Shown: piece by piece, positions 39,131-41,706 of the stretch
Numbering within the stretch: the stretch's first letter is position 1
How the letters are laid out: the number at the start of each line of letters is the position of its first letter
NCBI GenBank assembly: GCA_025363655.1
Contig: JANYDK010000094.1
Location: forward strand, 1-64,000
Length of the DNA: 64,000 nucleotides
Reading direction: 5' to 3'
DNA from: Deltaproteobacteria bacterium
GTDB taxonomy: Bacteria; Myxococcota_A; Polyangia; Polyangiales; JADJMO01
Program-made: the position numbers and the translations under genes
Notes under the pieces: model-generated
Seen by the model: only the letters and a program-made list of their open reading frames with translations
Told to the model about the DNA's origin: nothing
Database searches by the model: none

Positions 39131-40396
39131 TCAGGTCGCGGGCCGAGGCGGCTCGCCGACGTAGCGCGCACGAGGACGGAGCAAGTGAGGATCGTTCCGT
39201 TGCTCGAAAATGTGGGCGACCCAACCGGCGCTGCGGCCGAGGGCGAAGATCGCGAGCGCCGAGCCGGACGGGAGATCGAGCGCGGAGGTGAGTGCGACGA
39301 GGCCGACGTCGAGGGTCGGTGGTTCGCGCCCCTCGCGCTTCATGACGTCGACGAGCGCGAGGATGCTCGTGAGCATCGGATGCCGGCCGTCACGTCCGCC
39401 GATGGCACCGAGGGAGCGCGCGAGCTCGAGGAGCAACTCGGCGCGGGGATCGCCGTGCTCGTAGAGTCGGTGGCCGAAGCCTGGAATCGCCTCGCCACGC
39501 CGCGTGCGCTCGTGGACGACGGCGCCCGCGCGCTCGGGACGCCCGACCTCCGCGACGAGGGCTTCGACCCGATCGCACGCGCCGCCGTGGCGTGGGCCGG
39601 AGAGCGCGGCGAGGGCAGCGCTGACGCAGGCGTAGAGATCGGCGCCGGCAGAAGCGGCGATGCGCGCAGCGAAGGTGGAGACGTTGAGCTCGTGATCGGC
39701 GCAGAGAATCAGCGCCTTATTTACGGCTTCTCGCGACGCTCTCTTCGACTTGGTCTTGCCACCGAGCGCGACGAGACACGAAGAGGCGAGGTCAGCCGCG
39801 GCCGCCGCTTCTTCGACGCAGGCGCGACCTCGAGGCAGTCCGAGGAGTGCGGCCATCGCGGCCACGAGCTTGTGCGCGCGCTCCTGCTCGGCCGCGAGCG
39901 GGGCTCCGAAACGTCCGAGATCACGCGCAGCCATCGCGGCGACGCCGAGCGTGAGCGCTGCGAGCGGGCTCGGTTCTGCGGGGAGGAGGGCCGTGACGGC
40001 GCGCAGACCGAGCCGCGACGGCGCCACGAATCGCGCAGGAGCTTCGGGGAGCACGCCGACGGCGAGGAGCTCGGCGACCGATTCGAAAGGCACCCCGGCG
40101 CGGGCCAAGGAGACGGCGGCGTGACCTCGATAGAACGGACCGTCGGGGCTGATCGCCGTCACCGCCGAGTCGAGGACGGGCTCTCCCCAACGCAGCGCAG
40201 CGCCGGCGAGAGGACCGTGCCCGGCGCGCGCATCGCTGCGGCTCTTCAGACGCTCGACGTCGGAGCGGAGATAGCGATGCGTGCGCCCCTCGCGCACCGA
40301 GCGGAGGAGGCCACGACTGACGTAGGCGTAGAGCGTCTGCGGCTTCACCTCGAGCAACGCGGCGGCGATGGTGGCCGTCAGATAGGTGTCCTCCAT
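39131..40396 (-). CDS. Citrate-synthase-family protein with N-terminal helix-turn-helix
   Basis: 421 residues from MEDTYLT (upstream in-frame ATGs at 40417 and 40432 are alternatives). Residues ~1-55 form a MerR/excisionase-type winged helix (TATIAAALLEVKPQTLYAYV, then GRTHRYLRSDVERL). The rest is a citrate synthase fold with catalytic-type His in DHELNVSTFAAR and in GFGHRLYEHGDPRAE, and an Asp in TLDVGLVALTSAL where the catalytic Asp is expected. It may be an enzyme, a metabolite-sensing repressor, or both. It is divergent from a second citrate synthase gene with an AT-rich operator-like site between, consistent with autoregulation. Confidence 0.85.
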   Translation of the reverse strand: MEDTYLTATIAAALLEVKPQTLYAYVSRGLLRSVREGRTHRYLRSDVERLKSRSDARAGHGPLAGAALRWGEPVLDSAVTAISPDGPFYRGHAAVSLARAGVPFESVAELLAVGVLPEAPARFVAPSRLGLRAVTALLPAEPSPLAALTLGVAAMAARDLGRFGAPLAAEQERAHKLVAAMAALLGLPRGRACVEEAAAAADLASSCLVALGGKTKSKRASREAVNKALILCADHELNVSTFAARIAASAGADLYACVSAALAALSGPRHGGACDRVEALVAEVGRPERAGAVVHERTRRGEAIPGFGHRLYEHGDPRAELLLELARSLGAIGGRDGRHPMLTSILALVDVMKREGREPPTLDVGLVALTSALDLPSGSALAIFALGRSAGWVAHIFEQRNDPHLLRPRARYVGEPPRPAT

Positions 40397-40415
40397 CGCG
40401 ACATCATGTCGACAC

Positions 40416-40443
40416 ATTGATTGTTTGATCAATCTGGATCAAT
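40416..40443. promoter_or_regulatory. AT-rich operator-like site between divergent citrate synthase genes
   Basis: ATTGAT-TGTTTG-ATCAAT is a 6-6-6 inverted repeat at 40416-40433. GATCAAT then recurs exactly 10 bp on, at 40437-40443, about one helical turn. The patch is strikingly AT-rich for this genome and lies directly before the HTH-citrate-synthase start, so it is the likely target of that protein. Confidence 0.6.
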
Positions 40444-40491
40444 GCATCGCGCGGACCCATGGTTCGCCGAGGCAGCAACGAGGAGGCAGCG

Positions 40492-41706
40492 ATGGACACC
40501 ATGACCAAAGTGGCAAACGGCGCGAACGCAGCGAACGCAGCGAACGGCGGCAAGAAGGGCGGAGGACTCGACGGGGTCGTCGTCAGCGACACGCGGCTCT
40601 CGGACGTCGACGGGGAGCGCGGGCGGCTGGTGATCGCCGGCCACGACGTCGAATCGCTCTCGGGTGCGGTCACCTTCGAGCAGGTTCTAGGGGCGCTTTC
40701 GGCGCAGGATGGCGCGATTCCGACGCTGGCCGAAATCGAGGCGCGGCGCCGATCGCTCGGCGAGTGTCGCGCCCGCGCGTTCGCTCGCATCGACGCGCTC
40801 GGCGGCGCGCTCTCGATGAAGGATGGGATGGACGCGCTCCGAGCGGCCGTCGCGCAGCTCCCCGGCGCAGGAGAGAACCAAGAAGACGAGGTCATCGGCG
40901 CCGTCGCGGTCTTCGCCGCTGCTTGGTCACGCGTACAGGCTGGTCACGCGCCGATCGCCCCCGATGAAACGCGCACGCACGCCGCCGATTACCTGCGGAT
41001 GGTGATGGATGGCGAGCCGCACGCTGCCGACGTGGCCGCGCTCGATGCCTACCTCGTCGCGGTCGTCGATCACGGGATGAACGCCTCCACCTTCGCCGCG
41101 CGCGTGGTCACCTCGACGGGCTCCGATGTCGTTTCGTCGGTCGTCGCCGCCATCGGCGCGCTCAAGGGGCCGCTCCATGGAGGCGCACCCGGACCGGTGC
41201 TCGACATGCTCGACGCGATCGCGAAGAGCGCCACGAGCGCAACCGGCACGAACGACAGCGGAAAAACCGGCGATCTCGATGAGCTGGCCGTGCGTTGGCT
41301 CGAGACCGAGCTCCTCGCCGGTCGTCGCATCATGGGGATGGGTCATCGCATCTATCGAGTGCGTGATCCGCGCGCGGCGGTGCTCGAGCGCGCAGCCTCG
41401 GTGCTCTGGCGGGCGGGCCGTGGTCGCGAAGGCGGACGGCTCGCGCTCGCGCGGGCGGTCGAACGCGCAGCGACGTCGATTCTCCGGGCGAAGCATCCGC
41501 AGAGGCCGCTGCATGCCAACGTCGAGTTCTTCACGGCGATCCTGCTCGACGCGCTCGGGCTGCCGCGGGGGCTCTTCTCGCCGACCTTCGCCGTCGGCCG
41601 CGTCGGCGGTTGGACCGCGCACGTGCTCGAGCAACGCGCGGAAGGACGCCTGATTCGTCCCGCCTCGCGCTACGTCGGTGCGATGCCGAGCCGCCGTGAA
41701 GACTAG
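40492..41706 (+). CDS. Citrate/2-methylcitrate synthase family protein
   Basis: 404 residues; ATG 40492 chosen for its strong ribosome site AGGAGG (40481-40486). A low-complexity Asn/Ala N-terminus leads into a citrate synthase fold with DHGMNASTFAARV, LHGGAPG and MGHRIYRVRDPRA (two catalytic-type His). Where classic citrate synthases have the catalytic Asp in NVDFYSG, this protein reads NVEFFTA, with Glu. That may still work or may mark a different thioester substrate. It should condense acetyl-CoA or propionyl-CoA with oxaloacetate. Divergent from the HTH-fused homologue, probably its regulator. Confidence 0.88.
   Translation: MDTMTKVANGANAANAANGGKKGGGLDGVVVSDTRLSDVDGERGRLVIAGHDVESLSGAVTFEQVLGALSAQDGAIPTLAEIEARRRSLGECRARAFARIDALGGALSMKDGMDALRAAVAQLPGAGENQEDEVIGAVAVFAAAWSRVQAGHAPIAPDETRTHAADYLRMVMDGEPHAADVAALDAYLVAVVDHGMNASTFAARVVTSTGSDVVSSVVAAIGALKGPLHGGAPGPVLDMLDAIAKSATSATGTNDSGKTGDLDELAVRWLETELLAGRRIMGMGHRIYRVRDPRAAVLERAASVLWRAGRGREGGRLALARAVERAATSILRAKHPQRPLHANVEFFTAILLDALGLPRGLFSPTFAVGRVGGWTAHVLEQRAEGRLIRPASRYVGAMPSRRED

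Follow-up and report, generated by a model that had tools for sequence, protein, structure and literature searches.

A citrate synthase fold joined to a winged helix-turn-helix as a candidate local transcription factor beside a CitA-type citrate synthase gene

Does a citrate synthase that carries a DNA-binding head work as an enzyme, as a switch for the gene that faces it, or as both? This question is raised by two divergent genes in the window, by which we mean the whole stretch of 64,000 nucleotides that was analysed. The original prediction proposed a divergent citrate synthase pair, one member fused to a helix-turn-helix (HTH), around an AT-rich operator, and suggested that the metabolic-enzyme fold senses substrate or product and controls its paralogue. 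Both genes were present at the predicted place and both matched the corresponding Pfam domains (Table 1). Sequence comparison with relatives indicates that the fusion is very likely a regulator, an enzyme shape that was very probably turned into a metabolic gene switch.

Table 1. Features of the divergent citrate synthase locus, in window positions.
Feature	Position	Strand	Basis or remark
HTH-citrate synthase fusion, proposed regulator	39131..40396	-	421 aa, ATG start; HTH_17 + MerR_1 + Citrate_synt, AlphaFold2
MerR-like winged HTH domain, residues 5-51 of 421	40244..40384	-	Pfam match and model secondary structure
Recognition helix, residues 19-27	40316..40342	-	model, conservation, covariation; residue 24 covaries with half-site
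Citrate synthase domain of fusion	39170..40189	-	H270, H309, D363, R318, R388, R407 present; Glu at 313
Operator TTGATCCAGATTGATCAAACAATCAA	40417-40442	-	family motif TCAA-N2-TTGAT-N5-7-ATCAA, one mismatch here
Shine-Dalgarno-like GAGGAGG of partner gene	40480..40486	+	read from sequence
Divergent citrate synthase, PRK12350/CitA type, proposed target	40492..41706	+	404 aa; Glu replaces catalytic Asp

The domain content of the fusion was evaluated using Pfam, an AlphaFold2 model and structural alignment. The fusion scored 34.2 bits against HTH_17 (PF12728, cut-off 27), 23.4 bits against MerR_1 (PF13411, cut-off 21.6) and 231.5 bits against Citrate_synt (PF00285). Both HTH scores exceeded the gathering cut-offs and the modelled secondary structure agreed with a MerR-type winged HTH. 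The HTH match covers residues 17-63 when numbered on a 433-aa protein, corresponding to 5-51 in the 421-aa numbering used here. The AlphaFold2 model (mean pLDDT 92.5, 71 sequences) showed a winged HTH followed by a citrate synthase fold, with helices at residues 8-15, 19-27 and 44-58, strands at 33-36 and 39-43 (wing 33-43) and a weakly predicted linker at about 62-73. VIA-align, applied to the citrate synthase body with the HTH head judged by Pfam and the model only, gave a Z of 39 to PrpC (3o8j) over about 340 residues at 30% identity, and 2-methylcitrate synthases aligned. Pfam, AlphaFold2 and VIA-align together describe an enzyme fold plus a DNA-binding domain, as is found in trigger enzymes and enzyme-fold transcription factors. 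The fusion fell under every NCBIfam citrate synthase cut-off and also under those of the BldC (17.8 bits, cut-off 77) and HspR (24.7 bits, cut-off 105) families.

The likely start codon of the fusion gene is the ATG at 40396 on the minus strand, which agrees with the start of the HTH in relatives. A TTG start at 40432, which would give 433 aa, was rejected as unlikely because it lies inside the operator. Downstream, a DUF1223 protein gene (PF06764, 38290-39102) is convergent with the fusion gene, the stop codons being about 30 bp apart. Three further open frames with a citrate synthase domain were found in the same genome.

The partner gene, which likely starts with the ATG at 40492 on the plus strand, encodes a protein that scored 302 bits against PF00285 and 350.5 bits against NF009005/PRK12350, above the cut-off of 332. 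The catalytic Asp is replaced by Glu in all 45 partner-type citrate synthases compared (the one in the window and 44 others), and Glu also occupies this position in CitA of B. subtilis (2c6x) and CitA of M. tuberculosis; the proposed target is therefore a CitA-type isozyme. The fusion and the partner share 31-33% identity over part of their length and belong to different subfamilies, and a recent tandem duplication of one citrate synthase was unsupported. The proposed control of a paralogue has to be amended in that the divergent citrate synthase present here is not a recent paralogue.

The gap between the two genes, which on the minus strand reads ...ATTGATCCAGATTGATCAAACAATCAATGTG..., is a local AT maximum with 53-54% GC compared to about 70% around it, as had been proposed. 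The predicted 6-6-6 inverted repeat (ATTGAT-TGTTTG-ATCAAT, 40416-40433) and the further GATCAAT (40437-40443) were both found and lie within the operator region, which is the local copy of an operator conserved among relatives. In addition to inverted half-sites, the operator contains a direct TTGAT repeat at 10 bp. It is positioned 20 bp before the fusion ATG and 49 bp before the partner ATG. Shuffles of the window produced 0 chance matches to the 28-mer, and searching the 9.0 Mb genome with the pattern detected the operator once. Scanning of the gap for a sigma-70 promoter and a terminator recognised none.

Conservation was assessed using a family-alignment search of 84,980 species genomes, which resulted in at least 80 loci. 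The phyla among the matches listed were Myxococcota, Pseudomonadota, Chloroflexota, Acidobacteriota, Actinomycetota, Gemmatimonadota, Cyanobacteriota/Melainabacteria and Eremiobacterota, and a plasmid locus added Deinococcota. Together with loci from earlier searches these made up a comparison set of 98 full-length HTH-citrate synthase genes, for which the region from 180 bp upstream to 45 bp downstream of the HTH-gene start was scanned. The 8-mers TTGATCAA, TCAATCTT and similar ones were at least about a hundred times as frequent at these 98 starts as in shuffles. The motif TCAA-N2-TTGAT-N5-7-ATCAA was found just upstream of the HTH gene as an exact match in 58 of the 98 relatives and in 71 when one mismatch was allowed, compared to dinucleotide-shuffle expectations of 0.00 and 0.03, respectively. 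About a quarter of the 98 had no recognisable motif at the start chosen by the script, and several of these have a TCGA-type array. As the pattern came from the 98 sequences themselves, it was also tested on 24 Myxococcota relatives fetched later, a sample not fully independent because its phylum is shared with part of the first set; 13 of them carried it with at most one mismatch, while shuffles gave none, and 0.02 at two mismatches.

The motif was also confined in position. The 789 kb of the 98 loci contained 61 exact copies, 59 of which lie between -200 and +45 of an HTH-gene start. The other two (L060 and L064) lie about 1 kb upstream, before a PALP gene that heads the operon of the HTH gene. 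This PALP-family gene for a PLP-dependent enzyme (L060:3027-3989, L064:2982-3941) was seen in two Chloroflexota, runs in the same direction as the HTH-citrate synthase gene and is placed between the divergent citrate synthase with its operator and the HTH gene. With start codons chosen by script, a median of 14 bp separates the end of the operator from the HTH gene downstream of it, and a median of 59 bp separates its beginning from the start of the divergent citrate synthase. A chance repeat was ruled out because relatives belonging to many phyla keep the motif at this position, and the shuffles, the single site in the genome and the later-fetched relatives agreed with this.

The recognition helix, TLYAYVSRG, was nearly invariant in the 98 relatives and among the best conserved parts of the family. 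The original prediction had named degenerate HTH residues in homologues as the observation that would speak against it; this strong conservation rules such degeneracy out. The half-site type followed residue 24 of the helix. TCGAT or TCGAC dominated the upstream region in 12 of 12 members with Thr at this position and in 13 of 77 other members (Fisher 2e-8), and Ala or Ser was mostly paired with TTGAT half-sites. The Fisher value overstates the evidence because residue 24 changed only about five times on the tree of the citrate synthase part, two of the changes being on well-supported branches, and a tree-based independent-pairs sign test had too few independent changes to have power. In the Myxococcaceae members (L043-L046, L050-L052) the fetched loci had no citrate synthase neighbour and the operator was of the TCGAC/TCGAG type.

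Neighbouring genes varied across the family. A citrate synthase adjoins the HTH gene in about 42 of the 98 loci, a few of them assigned by hand; four of these are tandem and the rest divergent, so that the predicted divergent arrangement proved common among relatives. In the tandem cases (L010, L011, L073, L084) the citrate synthase immediately precedes the HTH gene and both genes run the same way. A prpB-prpC-like pair takes the neighbour's place in 14 of 98 loci, which belong to Lysobacterales, Rhodanobacteraceae and Eremiobacterota, and the pairs tested gave methylisocitrate lyase and 2-methylcitrate synthase equivalog matches. A further 12 of 98 form a family III CoA-transferase group, of which nine tested members gave a match, L039 is annotated as CoA transferase, and L104 and L096 were included without such a match. 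Members from Chloroflexota, Actinomycetota and Deinococcota face HMGL-like enzymes. In some other relatives the gene opposite is an unrelated one, such as that of a methyltransferase, an aldehyde dehydrogenase, a TctC receptor or a TauE exporter. The citrate synthase, prpBC, CoA-transferase and HMGL-like neighbours all handle 2-oxo acids, CoA esters or tricarboxylates. As the same operator persists across these neighbour types, the constant unit is the HTH protein with its operator and the neighbour is exchangeable. Control of a citrate synthase would be only one use, since elsewhere this candidate regulator lies opposite prpBC, CoA-transferase or HMGL-like genes.

Most of L065, L079, L082, L083, L085, L086, L087, L091, L092, L095 and L113 also carry a conserved CTGGCACCAT between the operator and prpB. 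Read towards prpB this element is TGGTGCCAGATTTGC, which has the GG-N10-GC spacing of a sigma-54 promoter.

Active-site residues were compared across the 98 fusions. The fusion in the window keeps the catalytic and oxaloacetate-binding residues listed in Table 1. R318 (98/98), R388 (96/98) and R407 (98/98) correspond to the arginines with which E. coli citrate synthase binds oxaloacetate, and two residues after R407 an Arg at 409 was present in 98/98. The catalytic triad was kept in 86 of the 98, including the fusion in the window, and the protein may for this reason also be an enzyme. H270 and D363 were kept in every member adjoining a citrate synthase or prpBC. One or both were lost in eight members, all in the group with other neighbours, and several of these eight keep the HTH and the operator or its TCGA form. 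Nine positions, Pro 313 and Arg 409 among them, set the fusions apart from plain citrate synthases. In pig citrate synthase Arg324 is an acyl-CoA contact. The matching position 313 is Pro in 84 of 98 fusions and Glu in the window, whereas nearly all citrate synthases compared have Arg, Lys or Thr there; position 313 alone does not exclude catalysis, because active PrpC enzymes have Thr at this position. The family also has a specific Gly at 315, and Leu at 366 where citrate synthases have Ser or Thr. Such a pocket would suit a carboxylate sensor in which acyl-CoA chemistry was partly or wholly given up.

These observations favour, at a probability of about 0.8, a reading in which the fusion, with its citrate synthase fold, would be a local transcription factor that senses a carboxylate and regulates its own gene. 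The domains, the conserved operator and where it lies, the match between helix and half-site, and the range of neighbours all have support in the sequence; that the fusion binds DNA, which ligand it takes, whether it represses or activates, and what the ligand does are what we infer. A fusion oligomer would sit with its winged HTH domains on the TTGAT half-sites arrayed in the common promoter region, and the citrate synthase body would serve for oligomerisation and hold oxaloacetate or a citrate-like acid in its pocket. When bound there, 14-20 bp away from the start of the fusion gene, it would probably repress that gene. The divergent start is about 50-60 bp away, and from this distance the fusion could switch the neighbouring enzyme gene, here of CitA type, according to carboxylate level, with oxaloacetate or a citrate-like product tuning its affinity for DNA.

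A doubtful but possible alternative is that the fusion is a trigger enzyme, a working citrate or 2-methylcitrate synthase whose DNA binding would be set by occupancy with its own substrate, as in PutA. The intact triad and oxaloacetate arginines of the fusion in the window and the triad in 86 of 98 members are consistent with this, as are the examples with an adjacent single target known in E. coli (PMC8249747). The family-specific Pro 313 (84/98; Glu here), Gly 315 and Leu 366 at otherwise conserved positions argue against it, and so does the finding that some members without H270 and D363 have the HTH and operator. Citrate synthases are obligate dimers, and the pair is often adjacent, in tandem in four relatives, which would fit fusion/partner heterodimers in which the amount of partner titrates the DNA-binding form. 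Such mixed oligomers are improbable given the distinct subfamilies and modest identity of the two proteins, and the partner is not needed, because the HTH and operator persist beside prpBC, CoA-transferase and other non-citrate-synthase genes.

It is very improbable that the operator belongs to another regulator, with the HTH head a structural leftover and both proteins ordinary isozymes. A precedent for regulation from elsewhere is the S. coelicolor regulator MtrA, which has a binding site between SCO5831 and SCO5832 (PMC12323332), but the recognition helix is one of the most strongly conserved stretches of these proteins, and the motif accompanies the HTH gene from phylum to phylum irrespective of the neighbour and also follows residue 24. 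Extending the local transcription factor reading to the family, we consider it rather probable that a family of one-site transcription factors found throughout the bacteria employs the citrate synthase fold as metabolite sensor. Its members would have been re-used to govern citrate synthase, the methylcitrate cycle (prpBC), CoA-transferases or HMGL-type enzymes; they would share a single conserved operator, and residue 24 of their recognition helix would set TTGAT versus TCGAT/TCGAC half-sites.

Compared to citrate and 2-methylcitrate synthases (PF00285; PrpC 3o8j, 6s6f, 6s87), the fusion has the same fold, triad and oxaloacetate arginines but differs in its N-terminal winged HTH and its own residues at 305, 313, 315, 366 and 409. 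With MerR-like HTH_17 proteins, including BldC (PMC5859096) and HspR, it shares the winged HTH, a MerR-like recognition helix and AT-rich half-sites. In contrast to BldC and HspR, its body is a citrate synthase fold rather than a coiled coil or nothing, and its operator also has inverted half-sites. Classical MerR proteins have a C-terminal coiled coil and an operator in a 19-20 bp promoter spacer; the body of the fusion is a citrate synthase fold, and no promoter was recognised in the gap. Enzyme-fold regulators, or trigger enzymes, are a known kind, and like PutA, BirA, NadR and PepA the fusion joins an enzyme fold to predicted DNA binding, with a local single target and a gene beside that target (PMC8249747). 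By sequence evidence this adjacent target has its own operator, as with trigger enzymes. Unlike these four, the fusion has a different enzyme fold and a putative catalysis that was apparently lost in some members.

B. subtilis CitR is a LysR-type regulator divergent to the gene of a minor CitA-type citrate synthase. The pair in the window resembles CitR-citA in having a divergent candidate regulator beside a CitA-type citrate synthase, but here the candidate has a citrate synthase fold. S. coelicolor SCO5831 and SCO5832 are two putative divergent citrate synthases sharing a regulated intergenic region, which is bound by MtrA; both are treated as enzymes under MtrA, and the likeness is in the gene pair and its shared region (PMC12323332). 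Full-text searches of open-access papers turned up no citrate synthase regulator bearing an HTH. A 2012 paper in J. Bacteriol. reportedly covers propionate and malonate regulators in proteobacteria and may already contain a prediction of the prpBC branch.

Annotation pipelines give HTH-citrate synthase proteins the label 'citrate synthase family protein'. A regulator may thus be entered in metabolic models as an enzyme, and an entire class of regulators of carbon metabolism may go unnoticed. If the transcription factor reading is true, it would explain the control of prpBC in Lysobacterales and of CitA-type synthases in several phyla. It would also provide a clean case of a central-metabolism enzyme fold turned into a sensor, with family-specific pocket residues that are directly testable.
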